The position numbers and the translations under genes are program-made. A DNA stretch of 21,772 nucleotides from a virus. The stretch spans positions 1 through 21,772 of IMG/VR virus record IMGVR_UViG_3300044492_000076; one strand, given 5' to 3'. Position 1 is the stretch's first letter. The number at the start of each line of letters is the position of its first letter. A model generated the notes under the pieces. The model had not been told where the DNA came from and searched no databases. It saw only the letters and a list, made by a program, of their open reading frames with translations. Positions 1,511 to 15,992 of this stretch are shown in pieces.

Positions 1511-1553
1511 GTCGGGCTGACAGGATTTGAACCTGCGACCCCTTGACCCCCAG
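1511..1553 (-). other. attP: attP core: 3' half of a tRNA-Pro(GGG)-like gene
   Basis: On the minus strand this reads as a tRNA 3' half: an anticodon loop CTGGGGG, stem TCAAG, a variable region, a T arm with loop TTCAAAT closed by GCAGG/CCTGT, then acceptor strand CAGCCCG and discriminator A. The 5' partner strands of the anticodon and acceptor stems are absent, so it is not a functional tRNA. Such a 3' fragment restores the host tRNA after integration. The GGG anticodon suggests tRNA-Pro; the isotype depends on where homology starts. It sits between two groups of integrase arm repeats and upstream of int. Confidence 0.85.
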
Positions 1554-1594: not shown

Positions 1595-1723
1595 GTGTGT
1601 CACGACTTGCCAGGATGTCCGATAAACACCCCTCGTGTGTCACGGAATACGCGGTTTGGTGACACACGAAATCGCCGGTTGTGTGTCACCCCGTGTGTCA
1701 CCGTGTGTCACCTCGTGAGTCAC
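1595..1723. promoter_or_regulatory. Integrase arm-type sites, tail-fibre side of attP (7 copies)
   Basis: GTGTGTCAC occurs at 1595-1603, 1635-1643, 1681-1689, 1693-1701 and 1703-1711. The inverse GTGACACAC is at 1659-1667, and a one-mismatch copy GTGAGTCAC is at 1715-1723. The copies at 1659 and 1681 form a perfect 10-bp inverted repeat (1658-1667 and 1681-1690) that could fold in RNA as a hairpin just beyond the last late gene. The final degenerate copy contains the stop codon of that gene. Confidence 0.75.
1658..1690 (-). terminator. Inverted repeat, possible late-operon terminator
   Basis: Ten bases at 1658-1667 pair perfectly with 1681-1690 around a 13-base loop, about 30 bases past the stop of the last late gene (minus strand). 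There is no clear T-tract, so it is only a candidate terminator. The same DNA consists of two opposed integrase arm repeats, which may fully explain the symmetry. Confidence 0.35.
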
Positions 1724-4347
1724 GGGCGAGGCGTCGACCCTTTGACCCGTGGTGTTGGGGCCTCGTTTGGGTCCAGCGCCAGGGGGGCCGAGGGGACTAC
1801 GAAGGTGTCACGGACGGTCATGCCCGGTGGGGTGTAGAACAGGGTGGGCGTCGTCGCGGACAGCGTGTCTGCTACCCGGGCGGTGGCGTCGATCGTGAAG
1901 GTGTCGGCCCCGTCGTAGCTCAGCACGATCTGCATGTAGCCCATGACAGTCCGGACGGGGGGTTGGTTCCCGAACTTCCAGGTGTAGGTCTCGCCCGGGA
2001 CCATCGGGAGACCGTTCTTCTCCCACCCGGACCCGATGTAGACCGGGAAGTGGCCGAACCGGTTATCGGCCGCGGAGCAGTAGCCCACGAGGTGGCGGTC
2101 TCCTCCGAACATGGCCACCCGGTAGCCCCCGGCCTGATACCCGTCCGTGCCTTCGATCCGGGCGGAGATCTTCGAGTGTTCGGTGGGGTAGTGCCACGGC
2201 TTGTCGCCCGCATCGTTGGCCACGAAGATCTGATCAGCGGTCCAGGCCGTCTCTTGAAAGATCAGGTGCATCTTCCTGTTGTCGAACCGGGAGAACAGCC
2301 AGTCCAGCTGCGCTTGGCCGTACATCGTCTTGGTGGGTGAGTCCGGCTCGAGCACCAGGGACCGGTCAGGGGTCCGGAAGTCGGTCACGATCACCCGGAG
2401 TTTCGAGCCGATGTCGTAGGAGTAGCCGCGGTGGCGGCGTGGGTCCCGCACATCCCCCCAATGGACACACGGGTTGAGGGCCTGCCAGGCCACCAGCTGC
2501 CGGATGGATTGCGGCATGTTGTAGGCGCCACCGGTCTTGATCGGGTTGTCCGGCCCGTTGGTGTCCCCGTTGTCGCAGAGCTCATGGTCGGAGATGCATC
2601 GGGCCAGGATGAGGGCGGACTGATCGGCGCGGCGCTTCTCGGGGAACTTCTGGTAGAGGTTCCGGTACTTCCCGATGTCGCGGCTTGGGGGGTCGTCCCC
2701 GGACATGGATCCACCCCAATAGCCGTCGTCCCCGAGGAGGGCGTGGGCGTCGGGGCCCCACGCGGAGATGTCGACGTTGCACGCTTCCGCGTAGGCGGTG
2801 GCGTTCGACATGCACGACCCAACGTGGATCTTCATTGACCAGGGGGTGGCCGGCGCGGGGAGGGTCTTGACCTTCAGGATCTCCCCGAACAGGACGTGGC
2901 TCGTCGCGGTGGCCGGTTGCAGATAGTAGGTCGTGGCGGGGGTCAGGCCGGGGATCGAGTGCTTGGCGATCCCGAACTCATCGAGGGTGTTGGGTTGGGT
3001 GAAGCTCGGGGCGGTCATGGCCGGCGACGTCGACCAGGCGGCGCATGCGGCCAGGCCGGCGTCGCCCGGTTGGTACAGGAACGCCACGGCGAGCTCGGTG
3101 GAGGTGTTCACGCCGGGCCAGGCTTGGCCGTAGACGTACGACGGGCGGCCTTCGACGGGGGCGGCCGGGGGGATCCACATAGTGGAGTCTCCCCGGATCG
3201 AGAAAGTGTCCCAGAATTGGCGGATCCCGTTGGGGAGGCCCCCGGCGTTCCCGATCGCATACCGGCCGGGGGTGTCGAGTAGCGGATAGGACCACACCTC
3301 GGATGGGCTCGAGGTCTCGAGGTTGTTTCCGGTGTAGATCCGGAACTCGATTTGTGGCCCGTACACCCCGAGGGAGATCAGCCACGCCAGGCGCCACCAT
3401 TCACCGGCCACGGCCTGCCAGGTGGTCTTGGCTTTCTCGGTGTCGGTGGCGTCGCGCCAGGAGATCTTGCCCGAGTTGAGCATCGTGAGCCGAACCATCA
3501 TCGCGGGGACAACGGAACGGAGCTCGAAGATCCCGGTGGGGTTAAGGGGCCGATTCTGGCAATTGATGTAGACAGACCCGGCCTCCCCCGATGGGTTGGA
3601 GACCCGGTACATCATGGTCGACCCGGCCGCGGATCCGTCGATCCCCAGGGCCGGTTGGGTGTCGTCGGCGGTGTGGAGGCCGGCCGCGGTCGAGTAGACC
3701 GGGGGCCCGGTCTTGGCGAGCACCCCGTACTGCCCGGCCACCACCGGATCCCCGTTCTTCTTCCCGGGGTCCTCGTAGCTGTAGGTGGTGGTGGACCCGA
3801 GGTTCAGGATCAGCGCCAGCATGGCGTCTATCTGCTCCTCGATGGTGTCCACCCGGTTGTCGAGATCCTCGATCTCCTCCGGTGAGATCCCAGGCGAACC
3901 GGGGGGGCCTTGGGCGATGGGGGTCCCGAGGTCGGACGGGATCTCGACCAGGGTGGTGATGTCGACGGTCGAGTCTGCCGGGAGCTCGAAGGTGAATTCA
4001 CGGGTGAACGGGTCGGGGTTGCCGGCCAGCTCGATCTTGCCGGTGTAGGTCCATCCGATGGGGTTGAGGTCCGGGTCGGTGGTGGCGATCAGGTAGATCC
4101 CCTGGTTGCCTTGGGCGTCGACCAGATCCCCGTTGGTGTCGAGGGTGGCCACCAGGGGGATCGGGACCAGCATGGTCGGTGGGTCGGCGGCCCCGTCGAG
4201 GAGATAGCCCGGTCTCGCGGTGAAGGTGACAGTCCCGATCGAGGGGTCGGCGTTCGGGTAGGAGTCGGTGTCGGGGGTGTCGGGCATCACCCAATGGATC
4301 CGGCCGGTGACCTTCCCGTACGACACGTTATCCGGCAGGAGAGTCAT
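1720..4347 (-). CDS. Large tail fibre/spike with PhoD-like phosphodiesterase domain
   Basis: This is an 875-residue modular tail protein. Residues 1-145 form a beta-rich N-terminal part that likely attaches to the tail. A short collagen-like stretch (QGPPGSPG, 146-153) and a coiled coil (157-184) follow, then a jelly-roll-like region (about 215-390) and a fibronectin-III/PhoD-N-like domain (about 400-495). The metallophosphatase-like domain (about 505-780) carries DDGYWGG (540-546), SDHELCDN (586-593), TDFRTPD (655-661) and GGDRH (748-752), matching in order the metal-binding motifs of PhoD-type alkaline phosphatases. Some PhoD enzymes cleave teichoic-acid phosphodiesters, so the inferred role is degrading a cell-wall phosphopolymer during adsorption. 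The start at 4347 follows GAGG and overlaps the upstream holin-like gene by 20 bp. It is the last late gene. Confidence 0.8.
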   Translation of the reverse strand: MTLLPDNVSYGKVTGRIHWVMPDTPDTDSYPNADPSIGTVTFTARPGYLLDGAADPPTMLVPIPLVATLDTNGDLVDAQGNQGIYLIATTDPDLNPIGWTYTGKIELAGNPDPFTREFTFELPADSTVDITTLVEIPSDLGTPIAQGPPGSPGISPEEIEDLDNRVDTIEEQIDAMLALILNLGSTTTYSYEDPGKKNGDPVVAGQYGVLAKTGPPVYSTAAGLHTADDTQPALGIDGSAAGSTMMYRVSNPSGEAGSVYINCQNRPLNPTGIFELRSVVPAMMVRLTMLNSGKISWRDATDTEKAKTTWQAVAGEWWRLAWLISLGVYGPQIEFRIYTGNNLETSSPSEVWSYPLLDTPGRYAIGNAGGLPNGIRQFWDTFSIRGDSTMWIPPAAPVEGRPSYVYGQAWPGVNTSTELAVAFLYQPGDAGLAACAAWSTSPAMTAPSFTQPNTLDEFGIAKHSIPGLTPATTYYLQPATATSHVLFGEILKVKTLPAPATPWSMKIHVGSCMSNATAYAEACNVDISAWGPDAHALLGDDGYWGGSMSGDDPPSRDIGKYRNLYQKFPEKRRADQSALILARCISDHELCDNGDTNGPDNPIKTGGAYNMPQSIRQLVAWQALNPCVHWGDVRDPRRHRGYSYDIGSKLRVIVTDFRTPDRSLVLEPDSPTKTMYGQAQLDWLFSRFDNRKMHLIFQETAWTADQIFVANDAGDKPWHYPTEHSKISARIEGTDGYQAGGYRVAMFGGDRHLVGYCSAADNRFGHFPVYIGSGWEKNGLPMVPGETYTWKFGNQPPVRTVMGYMQIVLSYDGADTFTIDATARVADTLSATTPTLFYTPPGMTVRDTFVVPSAPLALDPNEAPTPRVKGSTPRP

Positions 4348-4600
4348 CCTCGGCCCCTTCGATTGTGGTGGTGGTGTGGTGTTGGGTCCCGGCCCGGTAG
4401 CCCACATACGACCCGAGCACCCCGATGATTCCCCCGAACGCGGTGGTGAGAACTTGGGCGGCGTTCGGGGAGATCCCGTCGCCAGGGGGCCGCGTGATCA
4501 CCCCGTAGAGGGTGGCGATCGTGATGGTGTTGATCGCCAGCACCAGGCCGGCGGCGAGGATCCCGGCGACCCAATCGAACACACTCGCGCCGCGTCTCAC
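4328..4600 (-). CDS. Holin-like protein with two membrane segments
   Basis: This 90-residue protein has hydrophobic segments at about 8-32 and 45-68 separated by a short polar loop, and a charged, Thr-rich C-terminus (HHTTTTIEGAEDD). Size, topology and place just after the endolysin fit a class II holin, which would form membrane lesions that release the endolysin. It starts with GTG five bases after the stop of the 27-residue membrane peptide, without an obvious ribosome site, so translation is probably coupled. Its end overlaps the tail-fibre start. Holins share little sequence, so the call rests on topology and context. Confidence 0.7.
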   Translation of the reverse strand: MRRGASVFDWVAGILAAGLVLAINTITIATLYGVITRPPGDGISPNAAQVLTTAFGGIIGVLGSYVGYRAGTQHHTTTTIEGAEDDSPAG

Positions 4601-4605
4601 AGCAG

Positions 4606-4689
4606 CTACGACCAGACCTGCACGAGGATCAGGACGGCGATCACCAGGATCGCCACCAGCAGGATCGCCAGGACATCGGGGCGGATCAC
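4606..4689 (-). CDS. 27-residue single-span membrane peptide in the lysis cassette
   Basis: A GTG at 4689-4687 overlaps the endolysin TGA (GTGA) and opens a 27-codon frame ending in TAG at 4608-4606. It starts MIRPDVLAILLVAIL, then continues with about ten further aliphatic residues and ends QVWS. Residues 5-22 form one uninterrupted transmembrane helix. It fills the only gap between the endolysin and the two-span holin-like gene and has the same overlap style as other genes here. It could be a second holin component, an antiholin or a pinholin-like peptide; the sequence does not decide. Confidence 0.6.
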   Translation of the reverse strand: MIRPDVLAILLVAILVIAVLILVQVWS

Positions 4690-5390
4690 TCCTCGATCAC
4701 CTCGTACGCCTCCCCGAACAGTCGATTAGCTTGAGCGTTCGACATCGAAGTACCGTCCCGAGGCCCGGGGACGTCCGCGGCGCATATGTTGCGCTGCCAG
4801 TACCGGACGGCCTCGAGCACCTCGATCCCGTAGGTGGCGCCGGTGGTCGAGGCGGTCCCGAGGCCCGGGTCGTGACTGTTGGGAAGGTCCGGGTGATGCT
4901 CGAGGCGCCACCGTAGCCGGCTCACGGATTGGGAATCCTGTTGGTGTTGGTGGAGCTTCTCGACGTACACCTCCCCGGAGGCCCGCCAATCGGCCTCGGC
5001 CGGGCGAAGGTAGGGAATCAGGATCCCGTTGAGGTCCTCGGTCCACCCGAGATAGGTCTGTCCCCAATGGATCCGCGGCCAGGATCCGTCGTCGTTGCCG
5101 ACCTTCCCCGAGCTCGGGATGTCGGTGGAACGCATGTTCCCACCCCGAACGATCGCAATATGGCCATGTCCGGATCCACCCGAGCCGGACTTCCAGAACA
5201 CCGGGGCCCCCTTGGGGGGGTGTTTGTCGCCCGGGTGGCGATGCTTCGCGGCGTTCCATGCGCCGATCGCGTCGGCGGCCGAGCTGCCGATCTCGAGCCA
5301 TGTCCGGACGTACTTCAGACACATCCCCGGTTCGCAGCTGCCATAGGCGTCGGCATTGCCCACAGCCTCGTTAGCGGTCTGTACGACCAT
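4686..5390 (-). CDS. lysA: Endolysin: CHAP-like peptidase plus C-terminal wall-binding domain
   Basis: This 234-residue lysin degrades host peptidoglycan at the end of infection. The N-terminal domain (about 1-125) fits a CHAP amidase/peptidase: candidate nucleophile Cys24 in GMCLKYVR, candidate His77 in GHGHIAIV, then GWTEDLNGI. The C-terminal part (about 142-225) resembles peptidoglycan-binding repeats of actinophage lysins (EVYVEKLHQ, DSQSVSRLRWRL, VLEAVRYWQ). No signal peptide is seen, so release should depend on the membrane proteins encoded just downstream. The start at 5390 follows GGGGGAGG and overlaps the acidic gene upstream by 20 bp; a GTG at 5429 is an alternative. Confidence 0.85.
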   Translation of the reverse strand: MVVQTANEAVGNADAYGSCEPGMCLKYVRTWLEIGSSAADAIGAWNAAKHRHPGDKHPPKGAPVFWKSGSGGSGHGHIAIVRGGNMRSTDIPSSGKVGNDDGSWPRIHWGQTYLGWTEDLNGILIPYLRPAEADWRASGEVYVEKLHQHQQDSQSVSRLRWRLEHHPDLPNSHDPGLGTASTTGATYGIEVLEAVRYWQRNICAADVPGPRDGTSMSNAQANRLFGEAYEVIEE

Positions 5391-5583
5391 CGGCCTCCCC
5401 CTCGTCGTCGTCGTCGTCCTGGGCACCACCGGCGCCGGGGTAGGGCTCGGTCTCGGTGGTGTCGAGCTTCAGCCCCTCCTCGGTCTCGGTGGTCTTGGTG
5501 GTCTCGGTCTTGCTCTCGGTCTTGGTCTTGGCGGCCGCGGCCTCGGTCTCGGCCTCGGTCGGGTCGGGGGTCTGCTCGGTCAT
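5371..5583 (-). CDS. Acidic Thr/Glu-rich low-complexity protein, unknown function
   Basis: This is a 70-residue protein made mostly of Thr, Glu, Lys and Ala in short repeats (TKTESKTETTKTTETEE) with a pentad of Asp near the C-terminus. It is probably unstructured. It is preceded by a strong ribosome site (GGAAGGA, nine bases before ATG 5583), one of the best in the window, so it is likely well expressed. The DNA is built on a CTCGGT-type hexamer on the plus strand, which is prone to slippage. It lies between tail and lysis genes. No family recognised. Confidence 0.7.
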   Translation of the reverse strand: MTEQTPDPTEAETEAAAAKTKTESKTETTKTTETEEGLKLDTTETEPYPGAGGAQDDDDDEGEADGRTDR

Positions 5584-7267: not shown

Positions 7268-9000
7268 CAGACGGCCCTACCGGTGAGCCCGACGCGGCGG
7301 TCGTGGCCGGACAGGATCGCTCGGATCTGCCGGGCCACAGCTTCGGGGTCGAGGGCCCCTTGGACGATGATGGTCGGCCCCGAGCCACCGGCCGTACGGC
7401 TACGGGCCCCCATCCCGGTCACGGTGGGGTCAGCGGCGAACGTACGGCCGGCCGGCCCGGTCGGCACCTCGGGGGCCATGTTGAGCCCGGGGAGGTGGCC
7501 GAGGATCCCCCCGACGCTCGGGAGCTTGATGGAGGAGATCTTGTCGAGGAGGGTGTCCACCCACCCGATCAGGGATTCGACGGCCGAGCGGGCGGCATTG
7601 AACGGGGCGGTGAGCACGGCCTCGAGGCCCCCGAACACGCTTTGGGCGGTGGTCTTGATCCCCGATATCGCGGTCTTGATCCATCCGATCACGGTGGCCA
7701 CGGTGGATTTCGCGCCGGTGAACGCGCCGGTGATGAATCCCCGGATCGAGTTGAGGGCATCCTTCACCGGGCCGGGGAGGAGGTTGAAGATCGAGACAAA
7801 GAACTGCTTGAACGAGGCCAGGATCCCCCGGACGGCGTCGAGGGCCCCACGCCAATCCCCCTTGAAGATCGCCACCACCAGCTGCACGGCCCCCTTGATC
7901 AGACCAAACACCAGCTTGAGATAGGCCCACCACACTTGGACGTATACCTTCAGCGCGGCGAACAGCGCATTGAACGCGGGCCGGATCGCGGCCACCACAG
8001 CCAGGGCCCCATCTTTGATGCCTCGCCACATGGCGTCCACGAAGTTGCGGAACGTGGCGGATTTCTTGTAGAGAATCACGATCGCGGCCACGATCAGCAC
8101 GATCGCGGCGATCACCAGGGCGATCGGGCCGAGGGCCGCGGCCCACGTCGAGGCTTGGGCGATCCGGACCACCTCGAGGATGGTGTTGTAGGCCTTCAGC
8201 GCGAAGTTGAGAACTACGATCGCGGCGGCTACAGCAGCGATAACGCCGGCGATGATGGTGAACGCGCCGGTGTTCTTCCCGATCACCACAGCCATCTCCC
8301 CGAGGATGCTCGAGACCTTCGACATGATCGGGAGCAGCGCGGTCCCCAGAGATTCCTTGGTTTCCTGTATGGCGACTTGCATGCGGGCATATTTCCCGGC
8401 CGCGGTGTCGGCCGCGGCGGCCGCAGAGCCACCGGTGGTCCGGGCGAGCTCCTTGGATATCTTGTTCATGTCCCCGGTAGCCAGCACGGCCTTACTGAGA
8501 CCGGGGACCAGGCGCGCCAGGCCCGCGGTGTTCCCGGCGTACCCCTTCGCCAGGGCCTCGGAGACCGACCCGACATCCTTCCCGGTGGCGGCGGCGATAT
8601 CGAGCGCCAGGTTCATCGCTTTCTGCGACTTGGCCACCGAACCGGTGGCCCGGGCGAGGGTCCCCAGGGCCGGCCGTAGGTCGTCGTCAGCTACCCCGGT
8701 GGCCAGGGTGGTCTTGGTGATCCAATCCTCGACCGCGGAGACCTGATCTTTGGTGGCGCCGGTGGAATTCTGCAGGGACTTGGCCAGGACGGCGGCCCCC
8801 TGGGCGTCGTCGGCGGCGGCCTTCCCGAACGAGATAGCAGCGGCGCCGAGCCCGGCCAGGACAATCCCGGCCCCCTTCGCGGCGGTGTTGAGTCGCCCCT
8901 TCCATTTGTCGACCCCCGACGATGCCTGTTCCATCCCCTTCGCGGCGTCGCGGGCGTCGGTCAGGATCTTGATGGAGAGGATCGCGGAATGACTAGCCAC
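7267..9000 (-). CDS. Tail tape measure protein
   Basis: This 577-residue protein would set tail length and pass through the tube during DNA injection. It is Ala-rich and helical, with a tape-measure-like N-terminal half (LAGLGAAAISFGKAAADDA, ALAKGYAGNTAGLARLVPGL). Two strong hydrophobic stretches (about 250-275 and 290-312) and amphipathic repeats follow, and the C-terminus (GPTIIVQGALDPEAVARQI) is typical of the family. At roughly 0.15 nm per residue the tail would be near 85-90 nm, which is short. It starts with GTG inside the end of the chaperone frameshift product and follows the chaperone pair as expected. Confidence 0.93.
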   Translation of the reverse strand: MASHSAILSIKILTDARDAAKGMEQASSGVDKWKGRLNTAAKGAGIVLAGLGAAAISFGKAAADDAQGAAVLAKSLQNSTGATKDQVSAVEDWITKTTLATGVADDDLRPALGTLARATGSVAKSQKAMNLALDIAAATGKDVGSVSEALAKGYAGNTAGLARLVPGLSKAVLATGDMNKISKELARTTGGSAAAAADTAAGKYARMQVAIQETKESLGTALLPIMSKVSSILGEMAVVIGKNTGAFTIIAGVIAAVAAAIVVLNFALKAYNTILEVVRIAQASTWAAALGPIALVIAAIVLIVAAIVILYKKSATFRNFVDAMWRGIKDGALAVVAAIRPAFNALFAALKVYVQVWWAYLKLVFGLIKGAVQLVVAIFKGDWRGALDAVRGILASFKQFFVSIFNLLPGPVKDALNSIRGFITGAFTGAKSTVATVIGWIKTAISGIKTTAQSVFGGLEAVLTAPFNAARSAVESLIGWVDTLLDKISSIKLPSVGGILGHLPGLNMAPEVPTGPAGRTFAADPTVTGMGARSRTAGGSGPTIIVQGALDPEAVARQIRAILSGHDRRVGLTGRAV

Positions 9001-9426
9001 GTTGGCGATCCGCCTCTCTCTTAAGTACGTCGATCACGGTGGCCAGGGTCTCGGCCGACTCGGTCCACCATTGGCCCGGCGCGGTGTTGGTGGCCACCGA
9101 TATCTCGCAGATCAGCCGGGACCGGGACCCGGCAGGGTAGGGAGTCCGGTCTCGTCGTCGTCGTCCTCGAGGGCCTCGACGGCGAGCGTGTCGGCCTCGA
9201 ATGCCTCGTAAGTGATTTCGGGGCCGATCACGCGGGAACGGCGGGCCGCGGCCCATGCGATGAACGTGAGCCACAGGAACGGGGCATCATCGATCTTCGG
9301 CCATTTGTGTTTGGCCCTAGTCCGGTCCCACAGCACCAGATCGGGATTGATGGTCTGTACCTCGAACGGGGTTTCATCGGAGGCCCGGATCACCCGGAGT
9401 CGCGGCGTCGAAAGTCGAACGTCCAT
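8993..9426 (-). CDS. Tail assembly chaperone, -1 frameshift product (gpGT type)
   Basis: The G frame stops at 9112, while an overlapping -1 frame stays open from 9274 to the TAG at 8993, directly before the tape measure. Joining them by a -1 shift gives about 144 residues ending WWTESAETLATVIDVLKR, a T-type C-terminus. This is the conserved lambda G/GT arrangement. The most likely slip region is the repeated GGTCCC just before the G stop, where GGGTCCC spans 9124-9130; it is not a canonical heptamer. A GCCGGG/CCCGGC hairpin (9115-9120, 9128-9133) overlaps it. Confidence 0.75.
9112..9426 (-). CDS. Tail assembly chaperone, short form (gpG type)
   Basis: This 104-residue protein helps the tape measure assemble before tube polymerisation. 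The sequence is typical of actinophage chaperones: a short beta N-terminus, DLVLWDRTRAKHKWP, then FLWLTFIAWAAARR, an acidic run of Asp/Glu and a Gly-Pro end. ATG 9426 overlaps the previous stop as TGATG. The run of Asp codons precedes the probable frameshift zone that yields the longer form. Confidence 0.85.
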   Translation of the reverse strand: MDVRLSTPRLRVIRASDETPFEVQTINPDLVLWDRTRAKHKWPKIDDAPFLWLTFIAWAAARRSRVIGPEITYEAFEADTLAVEALEDDDDETGLPTLPGPGPG

Positions 9427-14165: not shown

Positions 14166-15992
14166 TCAGTAGACAAAGAATTCGAGGGCCACCGGGGACC
14201 GGACAGCCTCAGTGACAGCCCACCCCATAGCCCGGACCAGATCCGAACGGCCCGAACGGGCCGAGATCCCCAGACCCCCCGAACGGGCCACCACCCGGAC
14301 GGCGGCCAGCTGCGCCGCTAGGTCCGGGTCGGCGTCATGCACCAGGCGCCGATCACGGGCGAGCTGCCGGAGCAGCGGCAACGCCACCAGCGTCTCAGCG
14401 GCCCCCGCGGACTCGACCCCATCCCCGAGCCCCAGAGCCACGGTGGCGTCGTCACCCACCAGAGACGCACCCACCACCAACCGTGACCCGGGGTGGGTCT
14501 CGAGGAGATACCCGGCCCACGCCAGGGCGTCGGCCCGTCCCTCGAACGTCCCCCCGAACACCAGCACGCGGCCGTCAGGCAGGAGAGCAGCAGCAGCACC
14601 GGCCGAACCCATCCCGGCCCAATCCTCGACAGCACACACCAGGCCGGACGCCGGCGCGGAGATCGTCAGATCCCCGAGGTCGGCCCACACTTCCGGCTCG
14701 ATCAGCGTCTCGTCATTCGAGGATCCGGCGCCGGCCCGAACCGGCCAGATGTTGAGGTACTGCGATCGGAACGACTCGATGGGGTCGTCCTCGTCGGGGT
14801 CGTCAGACTCACCGGCCTTGGCGCGTTCGATCCGGGCCTCGAGGAGCTTCTCCCGAGTCGGTGACCAGTGTGGCGACGCTTGGCGCCACCCGGCGCGGTC
14901 CTCGAGGTCGGCGCCACGCGGCGCGGACCATTCGAGGATCAGGCTCGACAGGGGCGCGGCCAGGTGGGCGATAGCGGCGGCCCGTCGAGCGGGGAACAGC
15001 GGCGTGGTCTTGCGGTGGGCCGTCGAGGCGAGCACCAGCTGGGGTTGGACCCGTTCCGTCATGGTCGGCTCGAGCCCATCCTCGACCACCTCGGCCTTCA
15101 CCCCCCACGCCTCGTCGCACAGCCCCATCGACGCCGGATAGCCGTAGACCGACTCCTTCCCGCGGACAATCCAGCGGGAACCGTCCGGGGTTTGGATCTC
15201 CTCGTTGCCATTCTGCTCACGCACCTTGTAGCCGAGGTCGGCCCGAGCCCGAGCCCATGCACGCGCCGGGCGTTGAACCTCCTTGCACACCGGCAGATCC
15301 TTCCCGGTGTGAAGGATCAGCTGCTCCTCCCCGAACCGGGCCGCGGCGTGGAGTCGCCACAGCGCGCCACCCCGGATCTTCACAGACTTCCCGACCTGCC
15401 GGGCCGTCGAGATCAACACCTCGAGCCACACCAGCGCGCCGGCCGCATCATGCTCGAGCTCGCGGGTGATGCACAGACGCTGCCACCAGCGGAGTGTCAG
15501 CCCATGCTCGGCCTCGAGCCAGGCGATAGCCTCCGGCCCGTAGCTGCCCACAGCGTTCGGGTGGGGCCCCGACATGAGACGCGGCCACGTCGCCCCCTCG
15601 GGGACGTTCCGGAGATCCTCGAGCCACGGGCACCGGTTCCAGACCGGATCTGTCGGGCCGGGGGTGGTCGCGGCGTCTGTCGGATCTTCCGGGGGTACTC
15701 CGGCAGAGGCAGGCCCAATCCGCGGGGTTTCGCCACGCAAAAAAGCGGCACCGACTCGCGCAATTTCCGCGCCGAGCTTCCCACCTTCGGAGGTGTTGCA
15801 CTTCGCATGAGACGGCCGGGCGGTGTCGTCGGTGCCACCCAATGCGTGGGGGGTGGTGTGGTCGAGGTCCCAGGTGTCCCAGGGTTGAACGGGTTTCCCA
15901 CAGATCGAGCAGGGATATGGGAGGCGGTTAGCCCATCGGAGTCTGCGCTGCTTCCATCCGTAGGTGGTGGTTCGGTTCACGTTGTGGCCCAT
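14166..15992 (-). CDS. terL: HNH endonuclease-terminase large subunit fusion
   Basis: This is one continuous 608-codon frame. Residues 1-75 form an HNH nuclease: CSIC (28-31), WDLDH (41-45, catalytic His45) and HAKCN (62-66). A Pro/Thr-rich linker (90-117) follows, then the terminase motor ATPase with Walker A ARQVGKS (197-203), Walker B CDEAW (292-296) and STAH coupling motif (323-326). The C-terminal RNase H-like nuclease starts near VEDWAG (455). HK97-like phages commonly encode a separate HNH protein beside terminase that assists cos cleavage; here it is part of the large subunit. No small-terminase gene was found next to it. The start at 15992 has a weak ribosome site. It follows the repeat-rich gene-free region. 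Confidence 0.9.
   Translation of the reverse strand: MGHNVNRTTTYGWKQRRLRWANRLPYPCSICGKPVQPWDTWDLDHTTPHALGGTDDTARPSHAKCNTSEGGKLGAEIARVGAAFLRGETPRIGPASAGVPPEDPTDAATTPGPTDPVWNRCPWLEDLRNVPEGATWPRLMSGPHPNAVGSYGPEAIAWLEAEHGLTLRWWQRLCITRELEHDAAGALVWLEVLISTARQVGKSVKIRGGALWRLHAAARFGEEQLILHTGKDLPVCKEVQRPARAWARARADLGYKVREQNGNEEIQTPDGSRWIVRGKESVYGYPASMGLCDEAWGVKAEVVEDGLEPTMTERVQPQLVLASTAHRKTTPLFPARRAAAIAHLAAPLSSLILEWSAPRGADLEDRAGWRQASPHWSPTREKLLEARIERAKAGESDDPDEDDPIESFRSQYLNIWPVRAGAGSSNDETLIEPEVWADLGDLTISAPASGLVCAVEDWAGMGSAGAAAALLPDGRVLVFGGTFEGRADALAWAGYLLETHPGSRLVVGASLVGDDATVALGLGDGVESAGAAETLVALPLLRQLARDRRLVHDADPDLAAQLAAVRVVARSGGLGISARSGRSDLVRAMGWAVTEAVRSPVALEFFVY

Follow-up and report, generated by a model that had tools for sequence, protein, structure and literature searches.

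Phosphodiesterases that ride on phage tails and could in principle act on teichoic acid are better established for the GDPD family (PF03009) than for PhoD, which belongs to another enzyme family (PF09423). For enterococcal phages, a GDPD on the tail is predicted to cleave teichoic acid (PMC10194240), and that article also cites a glycerophosphodiesterase in the baseplate of Lactobacillus phage Ld17. The reference for the PhoD family is the Bacillus subtilis enzyme (2yeq), in which C180, D207, D265, D266, N271, N272 and D436 are among the ligands of one Fe and two Ca ions; the variants C180A, D265A, N271A, N272A and D436A are inactive on pNPP (PMC4223295). Substrates of PhoD relatives include teichoic acid, as proposed for B. 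subtilis, and phospholipids in the case of S. chromofuscus PLD (PMC4223295).

PhoD-type domains are common in phages. In Thermobifida phage P1312, the gene for such a domain (ORF22 phosphodiesterase, ALA06393) comes immediately after those for the tape measure and one tail protein, and teichoic-acid hydrolysis was already proposed for this PhoD-like protein by its authors (PMC4569894). The PhoD protein of Nostoc phage YongM ranked seventh among phage proteins in mass spectrometry of concentrated phage (PMC8875764); Anabaena phage Elbi also encodes a PhoD protein. Two actinophage proteins, Streptomyces phage Tomas gp123 and Microbacterium phage Tandem gp38, have an extra N-terminal domain before PhoD and serine at the position of D265. 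The Tomas gene lies among tRNA and hypothetical genes and the Tandem gene in the head module, where its position between capsid and head-tail connector genes (7320-9272 in locus L005) suggests a head-associated PhoD protein. A protein of a different kind is the phiC31 tail fibre gp49, which has an N-terminal attachment domain and Gly-X-Y repeats and carries no PhoD domain.

The window analyzed here, 21,772 bases long, is the entire metagenomic IMG/VR virus record IMGVR_UViG_3300044492_000076. It belongs to a phage whose host is probably an actinobacterium; its portal and RecT homologues do no more than lean to Actinomycetota. The late genes all lie on the minus strand and include those for the large terminase (15992-14166), portal (14154-12931), major head protein (12254-11037), major tail protein (10294-9812), tape measure (9000-7267), a 433-aa tail protein (7267-5966) and a 122-aa fibre-like protein (5969-5601), the last followed by one small protein gene. 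Beyond these come a CHAP-domain lysin (4686-5429, minus; Pfam CHAP E 1.7e-5, just below the cut-off), a holin-like 90-aa protein (4328-4600, minus) with two hydrophobic stretches visible by eye and homologues in related phages, a gene for an 875-aa protein, an attP-like site and an integrase gene (1562-180). Two smaller features were also seen among the late genes. The terminase frame (14166-15992, minus) contains an HNH-endonuclease-like N-terminal domain (approximately residues 14-90) in frame with the terminase ATPase part, and a 27-codon frame between the lysin and the holin-like gene (4606-4689, minus), VIRPDVLAILLVAILVIAVLILVQVWS, looks like a peptide that crosses the membrane once.

The 875-aa protein is encoded by an open frame at 1720-4347, for which the original prediction gave no strand; the frame is as predicted, with an ATG at 4347 and a stop at 1720 on the minus strand. 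This start fits the homologous fibres, which open with MALPxNIxxG, and it overlaps the holin-like gene by about 20 bases. The N-terminal 140 residues (3928-4347, minus) form an attachment domain of the phiC31 gp49 type, with 36% identity to gp49 itself and 31-39% identity to fibre, minor tail and hypothetical proteins of Streptomyces, Curtobacterium and Arthrobacter phages, and they match PHROG tail families. A model of this anchor built from 33 homologues has pLDDT above 90 over most of the domain, and its best fold matches both come from phage tails: 8kec (Z 9.2), the N-terminus of a fibre of cyanophage A-1(L), and 9d93 (Z 8.0), a chain of the Bxb1 tail tip. These scores stand only modestly above background. 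A stem of Gly-X-Y and coiled-coil elements follows the anchor, and Gly-X-Y repeats are also present in gp49. The collagen-like stem that had been predicted is present in minimal form, as three Gly-X-Y triplets (GPPGSPGIS, residues 147-155, 3883-3909, minus) read from the translation. The coiled coil spans four heptads (residues 156-183, 3799-3882, minus) with a perfect a/d repeat (I159, L162, V166, I169, I173, M176, I180, L183), and residues 156-182 are modelled as a single helix. The distal part is unrelated to that of gp49. The gp49-type domain bears out the earlier reading of a tail protein, which is likely, and would place the 875-aa product in the virion.

None of the 37 viral loci carrying the anchor also carries PhoD, so that their combination has to date been seen in this record alone. 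Neither P1312 ORF22 nor the Tomas and Tandem proteins have a phiC31-type anchor; in P1312 the PhoD domain is N-terminal and followed by a CBM-like C-terminus, and in YongM and Elbi, whose hosts are cyanobacteria, it is likewise N-terminal. The YongM and Elbi proteins rank near the top of the tblastn matches, with 26-27% identity, and their DDHD ligand set is complete.

The position of the gene differs from that of a phiC31 gp49-type fibre gene, as it lies outside the tail module, after the lysin and holin-like genes and beside the attP-like site. Such an order (lysin, holin-like gene, fibre gene, attP-like site, integrase) would also suit an enzyme that stays outside the virion and acts late at lysis or in the lysogen, for instance in phosphate scavenging, envelope alteration or DNA degradation. 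This would be in keeping with the related phages, of which 32 were found by searching with the 433-aa tail protein. Neither the anchor nor PhoD occurs in any of the 32 within the DNA examined. In 19 loci, the DNA examined runs 2.2 kb or more past the small fibre gene, and at least eight of these (L244, L249, L252, L253, L255, L259, L262 and L263) encode in that interval an anchorless phosphoesterase of the endonuclease/exonuclease/phosphatase (EEP) superfamily type, downstream of the tail genes and often beside the lysin. These genes have the EEP hallmarks LQE, GDxN and SDH, and two of them match PF03372 (E 7.5e-11 and 1.1e-5). Examples are found at 10761-11399 in L263, 8030-8668 in L253 and 7438-8070 in L255, and the one in L252 lies past a recombinase gene. 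The lineage therefore often has an unanchored phosphoesterase gene where this record has the PhoD fibre, and the exchange may reflect either a shared phosphodiester-cleaving role or a hot spot for cargo genes. Nevertheless, we regard a non-virion enzyme as unlikely. The anchor with its coiled coil matches fibre proteins of the structural kind, and the sequence has no evident secretion signal; moreover, in Curtobacterium phage Eevee the anchor gene likewise follows the lysis genes and is itself followed by genes annotated as minor tail proteins.

Besides these eight, L257 and L260 were noted to have an EEP-like gene within or close to the lysis interval, and several relatives have EEP-like genes that are too divergent for Pfam yet retain LQE, GDxN and SDH. 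In L264, L271 and L272, weak matches to the EEP profile lie upstream of the tail genes; this is the wrong position, and they were left out of the count.

Between the stem and the catalytic half lies a region (residues 184-400, 3148-3798, minus) that had been predicted to be a jelly-roll. Our data neither confirm nor exclude this. The region has no homologue in phages or in the fetched loci, no Pfam match and no significant similarity to the N-terminal region of the Tandem protein, and its pLDDT is low in both models, mostly below 50.

The C-terminal half is almost certainly a divergent domain of the PhoD fold. A profile HMM of 29 other phage PhoD domains, built without the sequence of the 875-aa protein, matches residues 437-827 at 96.5 bits (E 7.7e-26 at Z=1e6), and the best of the shuffled copies listed scored about 3 bits, so the match is not due to chance. 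Phage proteins annotated as phosphatase, phosphoesterase or phosphodiesterase align across the entire C-terminal half. The Pfam PhoD model (PF09423) gives 21.4 bits for the whole protein and 23.0 bits for the domain, both below the gathering cut-off of 27. A profile from a small alignment, which includes the 875-aa protein itself, finds B. subtilis PhoD with E 3e-33; a search of the PDB with the single sequence gave no match, so that the family profile is needed.

The structural comparison agrees. In an AlphaFold2 model of residues 189-875 made from 30 sequences, the catalytic core has pLDDT values mostly between 70 and 95, and the best structural match is 2yeq (Foldseek E 5e-18; VIA-align Z 28.3 over 406 residues, rmsd 3.2 A, model residues 216-662). 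The match covers both the FnIII-like and the catalytic domain, at about 16% sequence identity; here, the two sit on a phage fibre. It begins at residue 404, which substantiates the FnIII/PhoD_N-like domain of the original prediction (residues 404-500, 2848-3138, minus; the profile match starts at 437), and the PhoD-type metallophosphoesterase domain follows at residues 501-850 (1798-2847, minus). The model thus has the PhoD/PAP-like metallophosphoesterase fold with an N-terminal FnIII-like domain that characterizes PF09423. The next-best folds are purple acid phosphatases (PAPs; Z about 24), and non-enzymatic fibre domains are not among the best matches.

Two other assignments were considered and rejected. 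The PAP ligand set has Asp at the Fe site and His2Asp1Asn1 at the second metal; here, C512 replaces the PAP Asp and D587 the Asn of GNHE (PMC4223295). GDPD was rejected as well, as a Pfam scan up to E 1 returned PhoD only.

No close relative of the full-length protein or its catalytic portion turned up in IMG/VR or in 84,980 genomes. The PhoD half also found no match at E 1e-6 in 396 genomes of the phylum of a Streptomyces genome, a search that had no positive control and shows little. A tree made by a quick method puts the domain with the viral sequences, on a very long branch that diverges early and stands apart from Tomas and Tandem, with the placement unsure.

All four motifs of the original prediction are present in PhoD order: GDDGYWGG (residues 539-546), SDHELCDN (586-593), TDFRTPD (655-661) and GGDRH (748-752). 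One motif that precedes these, GSC at 510-512 with the cysteine that binds Fe, was absent from that list. We mapped residues by counting along the 2yeq alignment (chain number + 56). The Fe(III) site of B. subtilis PhoD (Cys180, Asp207, Tyr210, His438 and the bridging Asp436) has its full counterpart here: C512 in S511-C512 (2812-2817, minus) for C180, D540 and Y543 in GDDGY (2719-2733, minus) for D207 and the Fe tyrosinate Y210, and D750 and H752 in GGDRH (2092-2106, minus) for D436 and H438. TDFR (residues 655-658, 2374-2385, minus) corresponds to the LDTR motif of PhoD. For the Ca ligands D266, N271 and N272, the 2yeq alignment, gap-free here, gives D587, D592 (a conservative change) and N593 within SDHELCDN (2569-2592, minus), where the register of D592 and N593 could move by one against the phage set (DDHDYGPNN). 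Eight of the nine metal-ligand positions are therefore kept, one of them conservatively, and the exception is Asp265, which is replaced by Ser586. D540, D587, D656, R658, D750 and H752 fall in columns that are invariant among 30 phage sequences. Given this ligand set, PhoD-like is a more proper name for the domain than PhoD in the strict sense.

The serine raises the question of whether the domain has kept the fold and lost catalysis, leaving a head that binds its receptor, be it a phosphate-rich polymer on the surface or some other ligand, and does not cut it. At the position of Asp265, all 50 cellular PhoD sequences compared, from actinobacterial genomes, have Asp; in the sequences compared, Ser occurs there only in this protein, in Tomas and its close relatives and in Tandem, and the large viral set gives no measure of its frequency in phages because it was fetched by the DDH pattern. 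In P1312 the change is a different one, as DDHD is kept and Asp stands in place of the Fe-ligand Cys. The long branch of the domain would also fit a binding head. Tandem has, in addition to the serine, lost the following His (SDTD), and drift away from catalysis may therefore happen in phage copies. Since the long branch is not grouped with Tomas and Tandem, serine may have appeared at this position repeatedly, subject to the same unsure placement. However, all the other ligand positions, the catalytic-type His588 and TDFR are kept, which would be unusual in a dead enzyme, and Asp592 at the position of N271 might offset the charge lost at Ser586. We consider a purely binding head fairly improbable. 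With eight of nine ligand positions kept and the essential Asp265 replaced by Ser, catalysis is likely but not assured.

The Tandem gene in the head module raises a further alternative, as the fold may also decorate heads, and the domain could be a structural or decoration module with no part in host contact. Here, however, it forms the far tip of a fibre that has an anchor, where contact with the host usually takes place, and this makes a decorative role very improbable.

On balance, we lean towards a modular tail fibre or spike whose distal PhoD-type domain putatively cleaves a phosphodiester in the host envelope. The N-terminal domain would dock onto the tail tip, and the short Gly-X-Y stretch and the coiled coil, probably trimeric, would form the stem. 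At the distal end, the FnIII-like domain and the divergent metallophosphoesterase would make up a head that binds, and probably hydrolyses, a phosphodiester-containing envelope component at adsorption, through an Fe(III)-tyrosinate/Ca site missing one PhoD ligand. As guesses at the substrate, glycerol- or polyol-phosphate (teichoic-acid-like) polymers come first and phospholipid head groups second; teichoic acid itself is a tentative choice, and rather doubtful. Against an active spike stand the inactivity of the D265A variant of B. subtilis PhoD, the long branch and the location of the gene beyond the lysis genes near attP.

An active domain would be the PhoD family's equivalent of the GDPD tail enzymes and would show that actinobacterial phages can bring phosphodiesterases to the cell surface, and both substrate and receptor would become directly testable. 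The Ser586 protein would also be a natural variant of the three-metal site of PhoD. Short of such activity, the protein is best seen as a modular fibre, plausible but of an ordinary kind. That unrelated phosphoesterases are swapped within one phage lineage hints at a common need. A bolder version, which we regard as a long shot, is that swappable cleavage of envelope phosphodiesters recurs in this lineage, with many relatives encoding a standalone EEP enzyme close to their lysis genes and, in this phage, a teichoic-acid- or lipid-cleaving spike with a D265-to-Ser PhoD domain on a phiC31-type anchor.

The attP-like site beside the fibre gene has features of its own. All nine copies of GTGACACAC in the record fall within 1404-1711, with 0.19 expected in the record, and they flank on both sides a stretch resembling the 3' half of a tRNA (approximately 1511-1550, minus strand; GGTTCAAATCC T-arm). 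ARAGORN found no complete tRNA. The tRNA-like stretch is probably an attP core, with the repeats as integrase arm sites. In a separate observation, two actinobacterial genomes (loci L214 and L215 in genomes G032 and G079) encode phage-type PhoD domains with E 1e-113 and 2e-105, scores far above those of ordinary cellular PhoD, and these domains are possibly of prophage or phage-derived origin.
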